This document shows, one piece after another, positions 1,472 through 51,499 of a stretch of DNA of 64,000 bases (position 1 is its first letter; each line of letters begins with the position of its first letter). Origin of the DNA: Spinactinospora alkalitolerans (lineage in GTDB: Bacteria > Actinomycetota > Actinomycetes > Streptosporangiales > Streptosporangiaceae); assembly GCF_013408795.1 (NCBI RefSeq), contig NZ_JACCCC010000001.1, positions 5,022,001 to 5,086,000 on the forward strand, in the 5' to 3' direction. The notes under the pieces were generated by a model. The model had not been told where the DNA came from, did no database searches, and was given only the letters and a program-made list of their open reading frames with translations. The translations under genes were made by a program, and so were the position numbers.

Positions 1472-1651
1472 GAGGACATTGAACCGAACTGCGTTCTGAA
1501 AATGCCAGGCGGGATGGTCTTCAGCGACCGCGGCCGAGAGGACTGCGTCCGGGCGGTGACCACCCATCCACCGACGGGCAGCCGCACCGCTCCGCCGTCC
1601 TCGTAGCGCCGCAGCACCGTCGCCATCGCGTCTCGCGCCCGCGCCGCCGCC

Positions 1652-1733
1652 GCTGCGCCGCCGGCGGCCTGCGCGCACCGCGACAGCCGACCCCCCGTAC
1701 GGACCCGGTCGCCAGACACCGGCCATGCCCTCA
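1652..1733 (-). repeat. dispersed intergenic element, copy D
   Basis: On the minus strand it reads GGTGTCTGGCGACCGGGT, then GGCTGTCGCGGTGCGCGC, then a GCCGCCGGCGGCGCAGC tail: the same order of blocks as the copies at 11921, 13345, 31752 and 50628. It lies in the 341-bp gap between the lipase-like gene and the thioesterase gene, about 80 nt 3' of the lipase stop. Nothing else is recognised in that gap. Confidence 0.7.
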
Positions 1734-11864: not shown

Positions 11865-11920
11865 GCGGAAAGGACCGCGGGGCGGGGGTTGGAGGAACTC
11901 GCACGGCGGGCGGCCTCACT

Positions 11921-12047
11921 GATGCTCGGCGATCGGATACGCACAGGGGGTGAGCTGTCGCAGTGCGCGCAGCGCCGGCGGCACAGCGGACCCGGTCCCT
12001 GAAAACCCCCACCTCATCCCGCGAACGCAGCGGTCAAGACCCGATCA
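11921..12047 (+). repeat. dispersed intergenic element, copy A
   Basis: Sense strand is plus: GATGCTCGGCGATCGG, GCACAGGGGGTGAGCTGT, CGCAGTGCGCGCAGCGCC, GGCGGCACAGCGGACCC, then CCTGAAAACCCCCACC and a 3' block ending AAGACCCGATCA. It follows the PucR-type gene and ends in the stop codon of the minus-strand acyl-AMP ligase remnant. It matches copy B (13345-13448) almost base for base in the middle 60 bp, in opposite orientation. Confidence 0.85.
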
Positions 12048-13193
12048 GGCCCACGCCGCGGCGGCGCTCCGCTCCGACCGGGCCCCGCGGCGGGCGGCCC
12101 CGCCGGTGCCGGAGTCCCTCACCCGGCCCGTCACGCACAGCTCGCCGCCGATGACGACACCGAGGTCCCCGGTGCGCAGCCACGGGGCGTCACCGGCCGG
12201 ATCCGCGCGCGGCGCGCCGAACATGGTCGCGCCGAAGACCTCGACGCTGCGCTCGGTGTCGCCCCAGTAGGCGTCGGCGACGTTGGGCCCCTGCACCCAG
12301 ATCTCCCCGACGGCCCCTTCGGGCACCTCGACCCCGTGCCGGGGGTCCACGACGGCCACCCGCTGCCCGACCGGCCTGCCGCAGGAGACCAGCTCGACCG
12401 CCGGCTCCTCGGACCCCGGGAGCTCGACGGCCACACCCATCGCCAGGGCGTCGCGGTCGACCTCGCGCACGCGCGGCGGGCGGCGCGCACCGTCCATGCT
12501 GACGTAGGCCGTCGCCTCGGCCGGCCCGTAGGCGGGGATCTGGGCCGCGGGGTCCAGGCCGCACGGCTCGAACGCCTCGGCGAACCGGCGGACCGTACGG
12601 CCGGCGCCGGAACGTCGGGGAGGTCGGCGCGCACGCCGGTGCCGAGGGGCGGCGCCGGAGGCGGTACCGGTATCGGGGGCGAACTCGTCGACGGCGATGA
12701 CCTCCCGCACGCCGCAGGCCCCGTCGGAGCCGATCAGCTCCCGCACGCCCGCGTGCGCCGACGCGGTGGTGAGCACGAGGGAGGGCCGGCAGTCGCGCAG
12801 CGCCCAGCGCAGGCGCTCGCCGCGGCCGGGCGGGTTGGACAGATCGGGCGGGCCGGGCGGGAACAGCGGCACCGCGACGGCGCGGGTGTGCAGGACGGCC
12901 AGGACGGCGACGACGTAGTCCAGCCCCTGCGGCGCCAGGATCGCGACCCGCCCCCCGCCTCGGTCGCCTCCTCGATCCCGGTGGCCAGGACGCGCACCCG
13001 GCGCGCGGTCTGCGCCCAGGTGAGCGTCCGCGTGACGCCCGCGGGGTCGGCGGAGTGGTCGGTGAAGGCGTAGGCGGGGGCGTCGCCCACGGCGCTCCCC
13101 CAGTGCGCGAGCCGGGTGGCGAGCGGCTCCGCGGCGTCGAAGGATGCCGGGGCCGGCACGTGGCCGTAGCGGGTCGGCGGCATGGTCCCTCCC
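12045..13193 (-). pseudogene. fatty acyl-AMP ligase remnant: frameshifted, internally deleted
   Basis: Translation from ATG 13191-13193 (GGGAGG 5 nt upstream) gives the adenylate-forming N-terminus: SFDAAEPLATRLAHWG, then AYAFTDHSADPAG. At a run of six C (12951-12956) the frame shifts to VAILAPQGLDYVVAVLAVLHTRAVAVPLFPP and SLVLTTASAH. Between about 12600 and 12670 the Thr/Ser/Gly-rich AMP loop and some 150 residues are missing. The text resumes with RRFAEAFEPCGLDPAAQIPAYG and AEATAYVSMDG, then GEIWVQGPNVADAYWG and WLRTGDLG, and ends early without the C-terminal lid. FAALs activate fatty acids for polyketide or siderophore-like products; no such cluster surrounds it. Dispersed repeat copies lie at both ends. 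Confidence 0.8.
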
Positions 13194-13276
13194 GGACACC
13201 GATCTGGTCTCCGGTGAAGGTACTGACGGCGCGCCCCCGGCGCTGCACACCCGAGGCCGAAGTCCCGCCCCGCTTT

Positions 13277-13292
13277 TGTCACTCCGGTGACA
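13277..13292. promoter_or_regulatory. inverted repeat upstream of the FAAL remnant
   Basis: TGTCAC, TCCG, GTGACA, 84 bp before the remnant's ATG. Possibly its former operator. Confidence 0.3.
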
Positions 13293-13344
13293 GTCCCGGG
13301 GACCCCGCCTCCGGCTCCCATCGAACTCTGGCTGATGCGTCCGT

Positions 13345-13448
13345 GGGGCGAAGTGGGATTTTCAGGACTCGGACCCGCTGTGCCGCCGGCGCTGCGCGCA
13401 CTGCGACAGCCCACCTCCCGTGCGAACGCGACCGTCGGACATCAGTCA
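13345..13448 (-). repeat. dispersed intergenic element, copy B
   Basis: Reads on the minus strand from the trpS stop codon: TGACTGATGTCCGACGGTCG, then GTTCGCACGGGAGGTGGG, CTGTCGCAGTGCGCGC, AGCGCCGGCGGCACAGC, GGGTCCGAGTCCTGAAAATC. It faces copy A across the FAAL remnant. Confidence 0.85.
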
Positions 13449-25932: not shown

Positions 25933-26034
25933 GCCCCCATCCCTACCCGAGGTCGCCCACCGCCATCCCCGCGGCCCTGACTCCTCCCGCACCGCGGTCT
26001 CGTGGACCGGACGAGCCGCCAAGGTGCGGACGAC

Positions 26035-26076
26035 CACGCGCCGCCGGCACTACGCGCACCGCGACAGCCGACCCCC
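26035..26076 (-). repeat. dispersed intergenic element, truncated copy F
   Basis: The minus strand reads GGGGGTCGGCTGTCGCGG, TGCGCGTAGTGCCGGCGGC: the core of the element, without the flanking blocks. Its GGGGGTCGGC end coincides with the border of the 95-bp direct repeat beginning at 26067. Confidence 0.6.
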
Positions 26077-26272
26077 TTCGACCCCCGCGACGCACCGCCT
26101 ACTGCTCCCGCACCGCCACCTCGCGCACCGCCGTCGCCACCTGCTGCGACAGGTCGGAGTGCAGCACCACCCAGGGGGCCGACCCCCTTCGACCCCCGCG
26201 ACGCACCGCCTACTGCTCCCGCACCGCCACCTCGCGCACCGCCGTCGCCACCTGCTGCGACAGGTCGGAGTG
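26067..26272. repeat. perfect 95-bp tandem duplication of the malic enzyme 3' end
   Basis: 26067-26161 and 26178-26272 are identical over 95 bp, with a 16-bp spacer (26162-26177). The right copy contains the last 21 codons and stop of the malic enzyme plus 32 bp of 3' flank; the left copy repeats them downstream as non-coding DNA. The absence of any mismatch implies a recent event or ongoing homogenisation. Confidence 0.95.
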
Positions 26273-28510: not shown

Positions 28511-28763
28511 CGGGGCACCACCTGGTCGTGAACACCGTTCGTACAGCCCAGGTCTTACCCCTGTCGGGGTGGTGTTAGCCGGAGGTCCGCCGATCGGGCC
28601 CCCGACGTCCGACGCGAACGGTCGACGGCGTTCTTCGGCCGAGACACACCGAACCAACGGCTCGCAGTCCCCGGATCGCCGATGGGAGTGGGGGCTGTGG
28701 CCGCGGTCCTCCGTGCACCACCGCATGACCTGGGGAGGCCGCCGTCAGCGCGCCGGCGCCTGA

Positions 28764-28860
28764 CAACAGCCTCATCAGGTCACCACGGGCCCGGCCAAGG
28801 GCTGGAGACAACCCCCACCAGACCACCACGGGTCGGCGGGGCCTGGAAACAGTCCCCGCC
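28764..28860. repeat. imperfect tandem repeats in intergenic DNA
   Basis: Two related units of about 43 bp share CACCACGGG, then GGCTGGA/GCCTGGA, then ACA and a CCCC run: 28776-28819 and 28822-28862. Part of a 365-bp gap with no gene I can support. Confidence 0.35.
28835..28860 (-). terminator. hairpin after the thioredoxin/TPR gene
   Basis: GGCGGGG, 12-nt loop, CCCCGCC, 16 nt past the stop. Confidence 0.5.
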
Positions 28861-28875
28861 TTCCCCGTCGACGAT

Positions 28876-29832
28876 CTAGAACAGGGCCGAGGTCAGTCCG
28901 CGGCGTGCCTTGGCGATCCGGGGGTCGCCCGGCGGCAGCACCTCGAACAGCCCGAGCAGGTGCTTGCGCACCCGGTCGCGGGGCTCGTCGCGGGTGCGGC
29001 GCACGGTGGCGATGAGCCGGTCGAAGGCGTCCTCGAACTTGCCGCCGTACATGTCGATGTCGGCGACCTTGCACTGGGCGTCGACGTCCTCGGGGTCGTC
29101 GGCCGCGGCCTGGCGGACCGCCGCGGCGTCGAGGTCGCGGACCCGGGAGACCAGCCGCACCTGGGCCAGCCTCGCCTTGAGCTCCTCGTCGCCGGGGTTG
29201 GCCTCCAGCGCCTTGACGTAGACGGCCTCCGCCGCGGCGTAGTCGCCGTTCTCGAGCGCGGCGGCGGCCTCGGCCTGCACGGGGTCCTGCGCCTGCTGCG
29301 CCTGCTGCTCCGGCTGGTCCTGCTCCTCCTGCCCGCCCTCGGCCGGGCCCAGGCCGGTGTAGTCCTCGGGCAGGACGCCCTGCTCGCGCAGCGCGCCGAA
29401 GACCTGGGTGAGCAGCTCGCGCACCTGCTCCTCGTTCATCGCCCCGGCGGCGATCGGCTGGATCTGGCCGCCGAGGGCGAGGTAGAGGGCCGGGACGCCC
29501 TGGGCGCGCAGGGCCTGGGCGAGCTGCGGGCTGGCCTCGGCGTCGACCTTGGCCAGCAGCCATTGCCCGCCCGCCCCGATGGCGAGGCGGTCCAGCACCT
29601 GCTCGACCTGTTTGGCCTCGCCGGACCAGTTCGCCAGCAAGACCAGGATGACCGGGATTTGAAGGGAACGTTCGAGGACGTCGCTCTGGAGGTTCTCCTC
29701 GGTGACGTCGACCGCGTACGGGTTGGCGGTGCCTGAGGCCGCCTCGGCCTGCCGCTTGGCCTCGCGTTCCAAGGCCGCCTTGCGAGCTCCGAGGTCGACC
29801 GCGCTCTGCATGGAGAAGTCCGAAGGCTGCAT
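28876..29832 (-). CDS. thioredoxin-domain/TPR co-chaperone, CnoX/YbbN-like
   Basis: 318 residues. N-terminal region MQPSDFSMQSAVDLGARKAALE, then a thioredoxin fold (VILVLLANWSGEAKQVEQVLDR; LAKVDAEASPQLAQALRAQGVPALYL), a Gln/Glu-rich linker and C-terminal TPR helices (AALENGDYAAAEAVYVKALEANPGDEELKARLAQVRL). The redox site C-x-x-C is replaced by W-S-G-E, so it cannot act as an oxidoreductase. E. coli YbbN/CnoX is likewise a holdase with a modified motif. ATG 29830-29832 matches the family start; ATG 29841 is 3 codons upstream. It lies 3' of icmA on the same strand. Confidence 0.88.
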   Translation of the reverse strand: MQPSDFSMQSAVDLGARKAALEREAKRQAEAASGTANPYAVDVTEENLQSDVLERSLQIPVILVLLANWSGEAKQVEQVLDRLAIGAGGQWLLAKVDAEASPQLAQALRAQGVPALYLALGGQIQPIAAGAMNEEQVRELLTQVFGALREQGVLPEDYTGLGPAEGGQEEQDQPEQQAQQAQDPVQAEAAAALENGDYAAAEAVYVKALEANPGDEELKARLAQVRLVSRVRDLDAAAVRQAAADDPEDVDAQCKVADIDMYGGKFEDAFDRLIATVRRTRDEPRDRVRKHLLGLFEVLPPGDPRIAKARRGLTSALF

Positions 29833-29909
29833 ACCCTCCATCCTGCCGCATCCGACGCGAACACGGTCAACGCCGGGCGCGGCGACACGGCCGGCGGCCA
29901 CCGATCACG

Positions 29910-31638: not shown

Positions 31639-31751
31639 AATTTGGGTAGTGAGGGGCCGCCCTTCCGCCGGTCCCGGACCCGCCGGCCTCAAACCGCCTG
31701 GAACGAGGCCGGTGGCCTCATCGAGGTCTGACCAGCGCGGCCACGAGGTGG

Positions 31752-31849
31752 GCGGGGTCTCCAGGGGTCGGACCTGCTGCGCCGCCGACGGCTTGCGCGC
31801 ACTGCGACAGCCGCCCCCCTGCGCGGACCCGACCGTCAGACACCGGTCA
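31752..31849 (-). repeat. dispersed intergenic element, copy E
   Basis: The minus strand reads from the MarR stop codon: TGACCGGTGTCTGACGGTCG, GGTCCGCGCAGGGGGGCGG, CTGTCGCAGTGCGCGC, AAGCCGTCGGCGGCGCAGC, AGGTCCGACCCCTGGAGACC. Same block order as copy B. Confidence 0.8.
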
Positions 31850-32827: not shown

Positions 32828-34813
32828 GTGAGAACACTCCGCAGACCCCGCAGAGCCCGCGGACACGGATGGTCCGCAGCGGCCGTCCTCGCCCTCCTGG
32901 CCGCCCCGCTCGCCCTCCTGACGCCCACCACCGCCTCCGCCGACGCCGCCGACGTCACCGTCGTCTACAGCGAGGGCGCGCGCTGGGACACCGGCTACAG
33001 CGGCCAGTTCACCATCGACAACGGCTCCTCGGCCCCGCTGACCGACTGGACCATCGAGTTCACCCTGCCCGAAGGCGCCAGTGTCGGGAGCCTCTGGAAC
33101 GCCACCATGGAGCGCTCCGGCGACACCTACACGCTGACCCCGCCCTCCTGGGGCGCGAGCGTCCCGGCCGGCGGCCAGTACGGGATCGGCTTCAACGGGG
33201 TCTTCTCCGGCGGCGAGACCCAGCCGGTGAGCTGCACCCTCAACGGCGCACCGTGCGCCGGCGGCCCCTCCGAGGACGACACCGAGCCCCCGTCGGTCCC
33301 GACCGGCGTGACCGAGGCCGGGGTGACCGGCAACGCCGTCACGCTGAACTGGACCGGCTCCGAGGACAACGTGGGCGTCGCCGGCTACGAGGTCCTGCTC
33401 GGCGGGGAGGTCGCGCGCTCCGTCGTCGGAGACACCACCTCGGCCACCGTCGGCGGGCTCGACCCCGACACCGAGTACACCTTCACCGTGCGGGCCTACG
33501 ACGCCGCGGGCAACCGCTCCGAACCCAGCGCCCCCGTCACCGTGCGCACGGCCGAGGGCGACGACGGCGGCGGCCCCGGCCCCGGCGGTGACCGCAGGGT
33601 CGGCTACTTCACCCAGTGGGGCATCTACGACCGCGGCTACCTCGTCCAGGACATCGACACCAGCGGCACCGCGGCGAAGCTGACCCACATCAACTACGCC
33701 TTCGCCAATATCAACACCAACGGCCAGTGCTTCCAGGCCAACCAGCTCGGCCAGGGCGACGCCTGGGCCGACTACGGCCGGTCCTTCCGCGCCGACGAGA
33801 GCGTCGACGGCGTGGCCGACACCTGGGACCAGGACCTGCGCGGCAACTTCAACCAGCTCCGCAAGCTGAAGGAGGAGCACCCGCATCTGAGGGTCAACCT
33901 GTCCATCGGCGGCTGGACCTGGTCCAAGAACATCTCCGACGCGGTCCGCACCCAGGAGTCGCGGGAGCGCATGGTCAGCTCGTGCATCGACATGTTCCTG
34001 CGCGGGAACCTGCCGGTCTTCGACGGCGCGGGCGGCCCGGGATCGGCCTACGGCGTCTTCGACGGCATCGACCTGGACTGGGAGTGGCCCGGCTCCGAAG
34101 GCCACCCGGACAACACGTTCCGCCCCGAGGACAAGGAGAACTACACCGCGCTCGTCGCCGAGTTCAGGGAGCAGATGGACGCGCTGGAGGCCGAGACCGG
34201 GCGGACCTTCGAGCTGACCTCGTTCATGCCGGCCGACCCGGAGAAGGTCGACGCGGGCTTCGAGGTCGCCGAGATCATGCCCGACTTCGACTTCGTCACG
34301 GTGCAGGGCTACGACTTCCACGGCGGCTGGGAGGACACCGCCAACCACCAGTCCAACCTGACGCTGGTCGAGGGCGACCCCGGACCGCGCGCCTTCAGCG
34401 CCGAGATCGCGATCGAGGCGTGGATCGACCGCGGCGCCGATCCCGAGGACCTCGTGCTCGGGGTGCCCTTCTACGGCCGCGGCTGGACCGGCGTCCCGGC
34501 CGGCCCCAACGGCGACGGCCTGTTCCAGCAGGCCACCGGGCCCGCTCCCGGCCCCTATGAGGACGGGATCGACGACTGGAAGAACCTCAAGGACCTCCAG
34601 GGCTACACGCTGCACCGCGACGACGCGGCCGGCACCGCCTGGCTGTACGACGGCAGCACGTTCTGGACCTACGACGACGAGGTCTCGATGCGCCAGAAGG
34701 TCGAGTGGGCGCAGGACCGCGGCCTCGGCGGGATCATGGCGTGGTCGCTGGACGGCGACGACGCCCAAGGGTCGCTGATGACGGCCGTCGACGGGGCCCT
34801 GGACGGCTCCTGA
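32828..34813 (+). CDS. secreted GH18 chitinase: CBM2 - FnIII - GH18
   Basis: 661 residues. The signal peptide has an Arg-rich start and ends near ASA-DA (37). A family 2 carbohydrate-binding module covers about 40-145 (WDTGYSGQFTIDNGSSAPLT; WGASVPAGGQYGIGFNG), fibronectin III about 155-245, and the GH18 barrel about 258-661. The catalytic motif D-G-I-D-L-D-W-E is at 412-419 with acid/base Glu419, and VQGYDFHG and GVPFYGRGWTG form the substrate cleft. It hydrolyses chitin outside the cell. GTG 32828 follows GTAGGAG. A paralogue lies 466 bp downstream; this copy alone has FnIII. Confidence 0.95.
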   Translation: MRTLRRPRRARGHGWSAAAVLALLAAPLALLTPTTASADAADVTVVYSEGARWDTGYSGQFTIDNGSSAPLTDWTIEFTLPEGASVGSLWNATMERSGDTYTLTPPSWGASVPAGGQYGIGFNGVFSGGETQPVSCTLNGAPCAGGPSEDDTEPPSVPTGVTEAGVTGNAVTLNWTGSEDNVGVAGYEVLLGGEVARSVVGDTTSATVGGLDPDTEYTFTVRAYDAAGNRSEPSAPVTVRTAEGDDGGGPGPGGDRRVGYFTQWGIYDRGYLVQDIDTSGTAAKLTHINYAFANINTNGQCFQANQLGQGDAWADYGRSFRADESVDGVADTWDQDLRGNFNQLRKLKEEHPHLRVNLSIGGWTWSKNISDAVRTQESRERMVSSCIDMFLRGNLPVFDGAGGPGSAYGVFDGIDLDWEWPGSEGHPDNTFRPEDKENYTALVAEFREQMDALEAETGRTFELTSFMPADPEKVDAGFEVAEIMPDFDFVTVQGYDFHGGWEDTANHQSNLTLVEGDPGPRAFSAEIAIEAWIDRGADPEDLVLGVPFYGRGWTGVPAGPNGDGLFQQATGPAPGPYEDGIDDWKNLKDLQGYTLHRDDAAGTAWLYDGSTFWTYDDEVSMRQKVEWAQDRGLGGIMAWSLDGDDAQGSLMTAVDGALDGS

Positions 34814-34829
34814 CCGACGGTGGACCAAC

Positions 34830-34864
34830 GGGTCCGGGGAGATCCTCTCCTCTCCCCCGGACCC
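34830..34864 (+). terminator. terminator of the first chitinase gene
   Basis: GGGTCCGGGG (34830-34839) pairs with CCCCGGACCC (34855-34864). Confidence 0.65.
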
Positions 34865-34917
34865 CTCCCCCGCGGCGGCGGGTTCGGGTACGGCGGGCCC
34901 GCCGTCGCACCAAGTGC

Positions 34918-34954
34918 GCCGCGCCGGACCGCACACGACGCGGTCCGGCGCGGC
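34918..34954. repeat. long perfect inverted repeat between the chitinases
   Basis: GCCGCGCCGGACCGC, loop ACACGAC, GCGGTCCGGCGCGGC: a 15-bp stem. The second of four hairpins in this gap. Confidence 0.75.
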
Positions 34955-35030
34955 GCCCCAACCGAAGTGGACGGCAGAACGGCACGGTCGGCCTCCCGCG
35001 GCGCGAGGCCGGACCGTGAAAAGGACGGGA

Positions 35031-35099
35031 GCCGGAGGGGAACGCCTCTTCCCCCTCCGGCCTCCCCGGCGGCGGACCCGGTGCGGCGGGTCCGCCGCC
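35031..35099. repeat. two further hairpins between the chitinases
   Basis: GCCGGAGGGG (35031-35040) with CCCCTCCGGC (35052-35061), then GGCGGCGGACCC (35068-35079) with GGGTCCGCCGCC (35088-35099). No gene lies in the 466-bp gap. Confidence 0.7.
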
Positions 35100-35279
35100 G
35101 CTCACTCTTCCGCACGGCCCGCTCCAGGCCGCCCCGGACACACGTCCGCCACGAGGGGGCGGTGACCGACACCGGACGCCGCGCGCCGCGGCGCTCCCGG
35201 GTCATCCATCCGACCGCGAAAAGCCAGCAGCAGAGTTCCCCGACAGCCAGTTCCCCGTCAGGACGGAGACGACCGCAGC

Positions 35280-36965
35280 ATGCCCATCGCCCGCCCCACC
35301 CGATCCCCCGCACGGTTCGCCACGGCGGCCGCAGCGCTCGTGCTCATCCCCCTCGCTCCCCTCGCCCATGCCGAAACGGCCGGCGCCGACACCGGGGACG
35401 GACGGGTCACGGTCACCCAGACCGAGAACGCGCGCTGGCCCAGCGGCTACCAGGCCGAGATCACCGTCACCAACGACACCGGCGCCCCACTGGAGGACTG
35501 GACCATCGAGTTCGCGCTCCCCGAGGGCGCGAAGGTCCACCAGATGTGGAACGCGACCCTGGAGCCGGACTCCGGCGGCTACACCGCGACCCCGCCGCGC
35601 TGGGGCGCCACCGTCCCGGCCGGTGAGAGCTACACGTTCGGCTACAACGGCGTCTTCTCCGGCGGCGAGACCGGCTTCACCGAGTGCACCGTCAACGGCG
35701 ACCCCTGCCAGGGGACGCCGGAGGAGCCCGAGTACCGCCAGGTCGGCTACTTCACCCAATGGGGCGCCGCAGACCGCGGCTACCCGGTCAAGGACCTCGT
35801 CGAGAGCGGCCAGGCCGAACGCCTCACCAACCTCAACTACGCGTTCGCCAACCTGGACGAGAACGGCCGCTGCTTCATGACCGACGAGGACGGCCAGGGC
35901 GACGCGCACGCCGACTACGGGCGGGTCTACGGCGCGGCCGACTCCGTCGACGGCGTCGCCGACGACCCCGACCAGCCGCTGCGCGGGACCTTCAACCAGC
36001 TCCGCGAGCTGAAGGAGGCCAACCCCGGTCTGCGCGTGAGCATCGCCATCGGCGGCTGGGCGTGGTCGGACCACTTCTCCGACGCGGCGCTGCCCGAGAA
36101 CCGCGAAGCCGCCGTGGAGTCGTGCATCGACCTGTACCTGCGCGGGAACCTCCCCGAACTCAACGGCGCCGGCGGCGACGGGGCCGCAGCGGGCCTCTTC
36201 GACGGCATCGACCTCGACTGGGAGTGGCCGGGCACCCCGGGCGAGCCCGGCAACGTGATCCGGCCCGAGGACAAGGAGAACTTCACCGCGCTCGTCCGGG
36301 AGTTCCGCGACCAGCTCGACGCGCTGGAGAAGGAGGAGGGCCGCGAGTTCGACCTGACGGCCTTCGTCCCGGCCGACACCGGCGCCATCGACGCCGGATA
36401 CGAGGTCGACGAGCTCGTCGAGGAGTTCGACTTCATGAACGTCCAGGGCTACGACTTCTCCGGCGCCTGGGCCCCGATCGCCGGGCACCAGTCCAACGTC
36501 CGGGTGCCCGAGGGCGACCCGGCCGCGACCCCGCGCAGCTACGAGACCGTCGTCCAGGCCTACCTGGACCGCGGCGCCGAACCCGAGGACCTGGTCATGG
36601 GCGTCCCGTTCTACGGCCGCGGCTGGACCGGCGTCGAACCCGGCCCGCAGGGCAACGGCCTGTGGGGCGACGCCGCGGGCGCCGCGCCCGGCGTGTGGGA
36701 GGCCGGCTTCAACGACTACAAGGTCCTCAAGGAGTACGTGGGTCGGGACGGCTTCGAGCTGTACCGCGACGAGCACGCGGGCACCGCCTGGCTCTACGAC
36801 GGCACCGAGTTCTGGAACTTCGACGATCCGACGGCCATCGCGCAGAAGGCCGCCTGGGCGCGCGAAGCCGGCCTCGCCGGCGTCATGACCTGGTCGCTGG
36901 ACGGCGACGACGAGCAGGGCAGCCTGGTCAGGGCGTTCGACGAAGAACTGAACGGACGCGGGTGA
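35280..36965 (+). CDS. secreted GH18 chitinase: CBM2 - GH18
   Basis: 561 residues, paralogous along its whole length to the upstream chitinase but lacking the FnIII linker. Signal peptide to about 35 (ALVLIPLAPLAHAETAGA); CBM2 about 40-143 (ENARWPSGYQAEITVTNDTG; WGATVPAGESYTFGYNGVFS); GH18 from about 155 (YRQVGYFTQWGAADRGYPV). The catalytic D-G-I-D-L-D-W-E is at 308-315 with Glu315. ATG 35280 has CGGAG 12 nt upstream. The TTGACC/GGAAACT promoter of its neighbour is not repeated before it, so regulation may differ. Confidence 0.95.
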   Translation: MPIARPTRSPARFATAAAALVLIPLAPLAHAETAGADTGDGRVTVTQTENARWPSGYQAEITVTNDTGAPLEDWTIEFALPEGAKVHQMWNATLEPDSGGYTATPPRWGATVPAGESYTFGYNGVFSGGETGFTECTVNGDPCQGTPEEPEYRQVGYFTQWGAADRGYPVKDLVESGQAERLTNLNYAFANLDENGRCFMTDEDGQGDAHADYGRVYGAADSVDGVADDPDQPLRGTFNQLRELKEANPGLRVSIAIGGWAWSDHFSDAALPENREAAVESCIDLYLRGNLPELNGAGGDGAAAGLFDGIDLDWEWPGTPGEPGNVIRPEDKENFTALVREFRDQLDALEKEEGREFDLTAFVPADTGAIDAGYEVDELVEEFDFMNVQGYDFSGAWAPIAGHQSNVRVPEGDPAATPRSYETVVQAYLDRGAEPEDLVMGVPFYGRGWTGVEPGPQGNGLWGDAAGAAPGVWEAGFNDYKVLKEYVGRDGFELYRDEHAGTAWLYDGTEFWNFDDPTAIAQKAAWAREAGLAGVMTWSLDGDDEQGSLVRAFDEELNGRG

Positions 36966-36991
36966 CCCGCACCGGCCCGCCGTGAGACATC

Positions 36992-37032
36992 AACGGGGGA
37001 GGCGGCACGGATTCCGCGCCGCCTCCCCCGTT
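36992..37032 (+). terminator. terminator of the second chitinase gene
   Basis: A perfect 15-bp stem (36992-37006 with 37018-37032) ending CCCCCGTT, 27 nt after the stop. The remaining gap to 37292 shows no gene. Confidence 0.82.
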
Positions 37033-37292
37033 GCCGTCCGATCGGCCGCCCCGCCTGCAACGGCTCAGGACCGGCCCCAATGCCGTGAAGTCAAGGAATG
37101 GGCGGGGTGGGTCGTCGAGGGGCGTTGCGGGTCCGGTGGCCGGGCTCTGGCGCGTAAAGAGCTGGGCGAGACCTCTCGCGCGGCCACCGCCGGCGCGCTG
37201 ACCGCGGTCTTGCCGGCCTTGCTCGACCACAGGGAGACCTGTGGGGCACCGGTCGGCACCGGCTCCCCAGGCTCAACCACCCGGCATCGGGA

Positions 37293-50376: not shown

Positions 50377-50627
50377 CCAGAATTTCCAGGGATCTCGTTG
50401 CGCATCACGGCTGAACCGGCTTCACCGCGCTGCTACTCTAAGGAGTCAGCGAGCTACGAACTGTTGTGGTCGGGCCACATGCCGTCGGTGCTCCGGGTGC
50501 AGCATCGGGGGCCATCCGAAGTTCGACGTGCGAAAGCGGGCGGATCTCCACGGCATTCTCACGGCCGCCGGGGTGGATGACACGGGGTGCAACCGACGTC
50601 GTCCACCCCTTGCCGTGCGGGCTCACC

Positions 50628-50749
50628 GATGTTCGACGACCGGGTTCGCACAGGGGGCGGCCGTCGCAGTGCGCGCACGCCGCCGGCGGCACAGCGGGTC
50701 CGGGCCGGAAAAGTCCCGCCCCGCGAACGCGGCGGTCACGACCCGATCA
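50628..50749 (+). repeat. dispersed intergenic element, copy C
   Basis: Sense strand plus: GATGTTCGACGACCGGGT, TCGCACAGGGGGCGGCC, GTCGCAGTGCGCGCACGCC, GCCGGCGGCACAGCGGGT, then CCGGAAAAGTCCC and a 3' block ACGCGGCGGTCACGACCC ending GATCA. Its last triplet is the stop codon of the minus-strand GntR gene. The 3' block is shared with copy A. Confidence 0.85.
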
Positions 50750-51448
50750 GTCCTGCAGGGACTCGACGTCGGAGACCAGCAGCAGGTGGGACCGCATCGC
50801 GTCGGCGGCGCGCCGGGGGTCCTCGGACCGAATCGCCTCGGCGATGCGTTCGTGGCCGGCCAGCGACGCGGCCGGCCGGCCCGGCTGCGACAGCGACTCC
50901 ACCCGGGTCTCGGCGATCATCGGGGAGATCTCCGCCATCATCCGCGCCAGCAGCCGCGACCGCGCGGCCTGGGTGATCGCCGCGTGGAAGCGCTCGTCGC
51001 CCAGCACGCCGCGCTCCCCCGCCGCCACCTCCGAACGCATGACCGACAGCGCGGCGTCGATCTCGGCCAGGTCGTCGCGGTCCCGGCGCTGGGCGGCGAG
51101 TTCGGCGAGCTTGACCTCCAGGGCCTGGCGCGCCTCGATGATCTCGGCCCGCCGGTTGCGCCGGTCCCGCAGCAGCGCCAGCACCTGTTCCTCGGCCACG
51201 GTCCGCCGGACGATGGCGCCGTCCCCGTGCCGCACGTCGATGACGCCCTGGACCTCCAGCGCCACCAGGGCCTGACTCAGCGAGGCCCGGCTCACCCCGA
51301 GCGTGGCGGACAGCTCCCGCTCGGGCGGCAGCCGGTCGCCCGGTGCCAGCCCGGCTTCGCGGACGTACTCGCAGAGCCGCTCGACCAACTGTTCGTAGAG
51401 GCGGGGGCGGGCGATCGGGCGGGGACGGGCGCTGCGTTTCGTGGGCAT
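50747..51448 (-). CDS. GntR/FadR-family regulator
   Basis: A 233-residue regulator. Winged HTH about 18-75 (RLCEYVREAGLAPGDRLPPE; LSATLGVSRASLSQALVALE; GVIDVRHGDGAIVRR) and a helical FCD effector domain (RAEIIEARQALEVKLAELAAQ; DERFHAAITQAARSRLLA) with the metal-binding His/Asp pattern. AAGGAG lies 4 nt before ATG 51446-51448. It is divergent from the MatC-like carrier gene, an arrangement like MatR of rhizobial malonate operons. An inverted repeat between the two is its likely operator. Confidence 0.9.
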   Translation of the reverse strand: MPTKRSARPRPIARPRLYEQLVERLCEYVREAGLAPGDRLPPERELSATLGVSRASLSQALVALEVQGVIDVRHGDGAIVRRTVAEEQVLALLRDRRNRRAEIIEARQALEVKLAELAAQRRDRDDLAEIDAALSVMRSEVAAGERGVLGDERFHAAITQAARSRLLARMMAEISPMIAETRVESLSQPGRPAASLAGHERIAEAIRSEDPRRAADAMRSHLLLVSDVESLQD

Positions 51449-51499
51449 GGGCTCCTTCAGGGGGGCGGTGCGTCTTGACAAAGAGGACGAATGGCATAT

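Follow-up and report, generated by a model that had tools for sequence, protein, structure and literature searches.

The question raised by this locus is why a short dispersed repeat should begin or end exactly in the stop codons of the genes beside it. In the 64,000-nucleotide stretch of Spinactinospora alkalitolerans DNA that was analyzed (the window), the initial annotation described six copies of such an element, took the stop TGA to be the first or last triplet of the element, concluded that four of the six copies thus supply a stop codon, and read this as a sign of insertion targeted to gene ends, of selection there, or of a conserved function in the 3' UTR. A profile search of the window likewise found six copies, the next match scoring only 10 bits, and the same four of the six touched a stop; all four named stops were at the places given for them. 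For the copy from which the question arose, the end at 31849 was correct, but the start at 31752 was not, and the copy begins at 31718. The coordinates are collected in Table 1, with window gene families assigned by Pfam (MarR, GntR/FCD, and AMP-binding).

Table 1. Element copies in the window, their flanking triplets, and the stop codons that they adjoin.
Feature	Positions	Strand	Remarks
Element copy of the finding	31718-31849	-	Both target-site duplications included; inner element 31721-31846 (126 bp)
Gene-side duplication of that copy	31847-31849	-	TGA; stop of the MarR-family gene 31847-32380
Gene-distal duplication of that copy	31718-31720	-	TGA on the - strand
Element copy adjoining trpS	13318-13448	-	Duplication 13446-13448 is the trpS stop TGA
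Far triplet of the trpS-side copy	13318-13320		Reads TGG
Element copy	11916-12047	+	TCA/TCA duplication; far triplet 11916-11918 TCA
Stop of the AMP-binding (acyl-AMP ligase) remnant	12045-12047	-	TGA when read on the - strand
Element copy	50623-50749	+	TCA/TCA duplication; far triplet 50623-50625 TCA
Stop of the GntR/FCD-family gene 50747-51481	50747-50749	-	TGA when read on the - strand
Truncated element copy	1622-1724	-	50 bits; away from any called stop
Degenerate element copy	25990-26084	-	28.7 bits; away from any called stop

Other features of the window were recorded beside these copies. At 11916-13448, the partial AMP-binding (acyl-AMP ligase) gene lies between two inverted element copies 1.3 kb apart; the pair may once have bounded a composite unit or been a hot spot for deletions. 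An exact direct repeat of 95 bases, with a spacing of 111 bases, surrounds the 3' end of a gene at 26067-26272 and starts within the degenerate copy. At 32828-37000, two adjoining stretches of ~2 kb are about 75% identical in DNA; by eye, a secreted glycoside hydrolase gene seems to have been duplicated in tandem here.

Genome-wide, the repeat was found to be a non-coding element of ~125 bp with about 150 copies, as judged by a profile search that used sequence only. The profile was built from 30 genomic copies, and the genome searched was a single contig of 6.68 Mb. At least 150 copies were among the genome-wide matches listed. Sampling 1.98 Mb of the genome as 99 tiles of 20 kb at even spacing gave 45 copies, which scales to ~152 for the genome and indicates that the genome-wide list is nearly complete; two of the 47 rows obtained were not counted, one (18.1 bits) being a fragment at a tile edge and the other (17.1 bits) a copy already counted, matched again on the reverse strand. 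The 150 listed matches and the degenerate window copy gave a set of 151 copies. Both ends were well located in 117 of them, using the inner element sequence only, and the 34 with a poorly located end were dropped. The inner element of the 117 copies was 115-140 bp long (122-127 bp in 95 of them), averaged 73% G+C, and carried no gene, and its terminal inverted repeats were imperfect and ~24 bp long (consensus CCGATGTCCGACGATCGGGTTCGC versus TCGAGCTTTGACCGCTGCGTTCGC). Scanning the genome with the left-end pattern gave 102 matches, of which the first 100 were inspected. Two solo left ends, at G000:1772839 and G000:266892, each lie directly after a TGA stop; no right end was found near either of them, and both are outside the 150 copies and the set of 117. 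Five copies (G000 positions 1056030, 2853810, 4070830, 6069721, and 2661279) are embedded in a larger composite repeat, a cluster of 15 similar flanks, and the left flank of the truncated window copy appeared similar to this cluster by eye.

The stop triplet proved not to be the element's own first or last triplet. It is one half of a target-site duplication, whose other half lies at the far end of the copy. Among the copies flanked by TSA at both ends, the two triplets were TGA/TGA in 38 and TCA/TCA in 24, and only two pairs were discordant (Fisher p = 2.4e-15), so that the duplication has the constant length of 3 bp expected of a miniature inverted-repeat transposable element (MITE). Over the full set, the triplets adjoining the two ends matched each other in 65 of 117 copies. 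Shuffling the pairings 2000 times gave 33 such matches on average and never more than 49, and triplets taken at nine offsets farther from the element agreed in just 0-6 of the 117. The duplication was preceded by C in 101 of 117 copies and followed by G in 101 of 117. Together with the duplicated TSA, these flanking bases define the target as C-TSA-G.

Empty sites agreed with this target. Nine copies gave paralogous empty-site candidates; of the four displayed, two were clear and carried the target once, and in the other two no single TSA was readable. In the first clear case, copy G000:364770 sits in a repeat of which another member has CTCAG once, and in the second, the copy at 4505076 sits in a repeat of which a member has CTGAG once; further members of these host repeats had diverged at the site. 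In two relatives of trpS and one of GntR, the orthologous stop likewise reads CTGAG, the empty target. The duplication, the target motif, and the empty sites together argue that the element is a transposed, MITE-like unit, and it is likewise short, non-coding, dispersed, and multi-copy. The window itself contains, at 37127-37244, a 74% identical relative of the third dispersed repeat that hosts copy G000:364770.

Since the gene-side triplet keeps the original frame, a gene that is hit at its TGA ends where it did before. Insertion at a stop would thus neither truncate nor extend the protein, as the orthologues of three genes showed and as the geometry implies for the others. All 12 relatives compared end at the residue position where TrpS ends, and the GntR protein ended within one residue of its orthologues in 5 of 7 close cases, the five being the readable ones. 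The MarR protein has 177 residues; among the 55 of 80 orthologue loci that were read, 52 proteins had 170-183 residues, two had 191 and 193, and one was broken at 133. The element profile matched none of the 80 MarR loci, the closest of which in the protein search belonged to Marinitenerispora, Actinorugispora, Nocardiopsis, and Streptomonospora, in a search that may omit the organism's own records; these neighbors suggest a place among the Nocardiopsaceae. The comparison of C-termini proposed in the initial annotation therefore revealed no truncation or extension in TrpS, MarR, or GntR, and the view that the copies supply stop codons is not supported: insertion took place at the TGA that the gene already had, and duplicated it.

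The frequency of such insertions was assessed over the 117 copies with genes from a custom codon-usage caller (80% coding) in place of curated annotation. A called stop lay exactly at the gene-side triplet in 62 of the 117 copies, and every one of these stops was TGA; TAG or TAA accounts for 617 of 2192 called stops. The stop-sited copies comprised 39 in tandem and 23 in convergent arrangement. None of the 117 copies was inside a called gene, yet 1322 of 2121 sampled CTSAG sites are coding. An element with a C-TSA-G target in a TGA-rich genome would meet some stops by chance alone. Outside the copies (99 tiles plus the window), 176 CTSAG sites fell at stops, 623 were intergenic, and 1322 were within coding sequence, so 22% of insertions (176 of 799 permissible, non-coding sites) would be expected at stops without any preference. 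In fact, 53% of the copies were at stops (p = 2.8e-13). A permissive coding mask raised the expectation to 25% (p = 1.4e-10), and when the 34 dropped copies were all counted as misses, 62 of 151 still exceeded 22% (p = 1.8e-7) and 25% (p = 2.0e-5), even though the well-located end of 7 of these 34 is on a stop. The tiles alone gave 23 of 35 copies at stops, and 59 of 101 were at stops without the 16 copies that have repeated flanks. The availability of CTSAG sites therefore explains a part of the pattern, 22-25%, and a 2-3-fold excess remains, making it very improbable that coincidence is the whole explanation. The copies do not mostly sit at random distances from stops, the outcome by which the annotated association was to have failed.

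Two further counts were made on these copies. The left end of the element faces the stop in 40 of the 62 stop-sited copies (p = 0.03), for which we offer no explanation. Forty-six of the 62 copies whose two flanking TSA triplets agree are at stops, a figure that we did not count as evidence because a stop preserves its triplet.

These results are best accounted for by a non-autonomous, MITE-like DNA transposon that duplicates the TGA it hits and leaves the protein unchanged, with the excess at stops most likely due to selection; we assign this reading a probability of roughly 0.88. On this reading, the element inserted by a staggered cut at C-TSA-G, leaving TSA on both sides of the copy, and where the target was C-TGA-G at a gene end, the gene keeps its own TGA and a second TGA lies beyond the element. 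The TNA-like target suggests that the mobilizing enzyme was perhaps of the IS5/PIF-Harbinger type. The stop would be the point at which an insertion of ~128 bp can part the reading frame from the downstream signals without breaking either, and the downstream DNA would be shifted as a block, so that the gene, its terminator, and the next promoter would stay whole.

We rank purifying selection first, as the most likely source of the excess, and targeting second. Selection predicts a gradient with distance as well as absence from genes. Copies per target site, in relative units because genome-wide copies were divided by sites in 2.04 Mb, fell from 0.39 at the stop to 0.25 at 1-24 nt and then to 0.22, 0.12, 0.10, and 0.08 with increasing distance; the value was 0.025 at >400 nt downstream of a stop and 0.065 in divergent regions. 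The same gradient away from 3' ends would arise if supercoiling, R-loops close to the site of termination, or a similar cue actively attracted the machinery to where expressed genes end, with C-TSA-G then fixing the exact base. Targeting of this kind could also explain why the exact stop is in excess over sites 1-99 nt downstream (62:29 versus 159:157, odds ratio 2.1, p = 0.003). The excess persists in convergent regions (23 at the stop and 12 within 399 nt, versus 66 and 86, p = 0.02), and no age trend was observed, stop-sited copies making up 22, 21, and 19 of 39 by identity tertile (Mann-Whitney p = 0.80); these two results fit targeting equally well. However, the conditioned excess is just 2-3-fold, and selection predicts the gradient too. 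We therefore consider active targeting unlikely, and slightly less likely again that the transposition machinery truly prefers stop codons beyond C-TSA-G, sensing the 3' ends of expressed genes and landing there harmlessly.

A second dispersed repeat served as a control and also weighs against targeting. This family is ~280 bp long, has CTAGATCG at its ends, is apparently flanked by duplications of TA or TNA, and gave 42 matches in 2.59 Mb. Among the 37 copies for which an end could be located, 14 adjoin a stop (TAG in most cases), which is about as often as non-coding CTAG sites do (143 at stops and 311 intergenic, 143 of 454; p = 0.46), in a comparison that is rough because element copies were left unmasked. 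A stop-like target alone can thus put repeats on stops, and the first family shows something more. One copy of the second family, in two overlapping pieces, lies in the window at 28671-28880, and its end falls on a TAG, the stop codon of the gene at 28876-29841 (- strand). In sum, the annotated proposal of targeted insertion or selection at gene ends stands as far as insertion at stops is concerned, given the duplication, the target, the empty sites, and the excess; between its two branches, selection is favored over targeting.

The remaining proposal was that the element is a conserved 3'-UTR feature, such as a terminator, an RNA stabilizer, or a protein-binding site, that selection has retained at gene ends. 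The position of 62 of 117 copies directly after a gene fits such a role, as does a run of central columns that are mostly 94-100% conserved, but almost all highly conserved columns are G/C, and in the duplications, too, the G/C position had changed in just 2 of 62. In the gene-distal duplication of stop-sited copies, T had changed in 7 of 62 and A in 9 of 62 (11% and 15%), and in the element, 32 of 33 A/T columns vary in at least 9% of copies. Many A/T columns are far more variable than the duplications, perhaps owing to several source lineages. Weak constraint on the G/C core is possible, the G/C comparison having little power with 62 duplications. Column 46 of the element (the T of GCAGTGCGCGCA) is the sole A/T column kept in 98% of the 117 copies. 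Predicted RNA structure also spoke against the role: the mean folding z was +0.21 and -0.02 on the two strands relative to shuffles (60 of 117 copies), only 3 of 29 predicted pairs in the consensus of 30 copies had double-sided changes, and Rfam gave no match at the gathering score in the window. An intrinsic terminator or structured RNA was rejected as a candidate, folding being no stronger than in shuffled sequence in these 60 copies. No copy of the element was found in relatives. The absence of excess structure, the lack of an Rfam match in the window, and the neutral-looking decay make a conserved 3'-UTR function improbable.

No full-length parent was found among the own-genome transposase loci of PF13340 (5), PF13359 (3), and PF01609 (9) that were scanned for the element's ends; their end scores were at most 14.7 bits, with 4 of 17 above 8, compared with 32-38 for the genuine solo ends. 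The end pattern likewise revealed no autonomous partner in the organism's own genome, and such a partner may have been lost from it. The element was found in 0 of 20 other genomes in a search with the own genome as positive control, in 0 of 20 named near genomes in a search run without that control, and, under stricter filters (E up to 1e-6), in 0 of 249 other genomes of the family from 67 other genera. No blastn match to the element was obtained in plasmid or phage records. Eight IMG/VR stretches with the 19-base core pattern were set aside, their profile scores of at most 10.6 bits marking them as chance matches.

Several known systems resemble the element in part. In the IS1031 and IS427 groups of the IS5 family, insertion duplicates TNA or TA, and the element shares this type of duplication, its triplet being a TNA and mostly TSA. 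No inverted repeats shared with an IS5-family element were found among the IS5/IS4-type loci of the own genome, so we did not file the element under IS5 or the PIF/Harbinger-IS5-like group (PHIS). The MIRUs of mycobacteria insert at overlapping stop and start codons with a TGA-containing target. Like the element, they are short repeats dispersed in an actinobacterium, as far as this general likeness goes. For the terms tried, the literature matches listed mentioned neither this element nor bacterial MITEs that insert at stop codons, and MIRU insertion was likewise absent from them.

Judged by its sequence features, the element probably works like a MITE, with the reservation that no partner with the same ends was found in three transposase families. 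Bacterial MITEs such as RUP (107 bp, 108 copies), Correia/NEMIS, and ERIC-like elements are described in one review as shorter than 200 bp, non-coding, mostly intergenic, and equipped with inverted repeats and a duplication, and most of them as A+T-rich with TA ends (PMC2229807). The element differs from these in its 73% G+C, its TSA duplication, and the location of 62 of 117 copies on stop codons. MITEAba12 of Acinetobacter is likewise a MITE with duplications, 111-114 bp long, but it has a 9-bp duplication and a known partner IS, and the available portion of that paper mentions no stop-codon preference (PMC6382973). The NuwaII group of PHIS has the target C-TNA-G and a probable 3-bp TNA duplication, which resembles that of the element; NuwaII families are eukaryotic, whereas the element is bacterial, has mostly C-TSA-G, and is without a transposase found (PMC4482050). 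REP and BIME sequences are extragenic, often lie between convergent genes in what were argued to be low-harm insertion places, and consist, for REPs, of 21-65-base palindromes that are targets of IS elements (PMC1525189). The element is ~125 bp long, carries duplications, and folds no better than shuffled sequence, and so is not a short palindrome of that kind.

The apparent puzzle of an element that supplies stop codons is thereby turned into a measurable rule, in which a C-TSA-G element duplicates the stop on which it lands and the protein stays unchanged. Annotators are also cautioned that the boundary of a repeat can fall on a stop codon without any regulatory significance. The ~150 mapped insertions in one chromosome provide a natural test of selection versus targeting for harmless placement.
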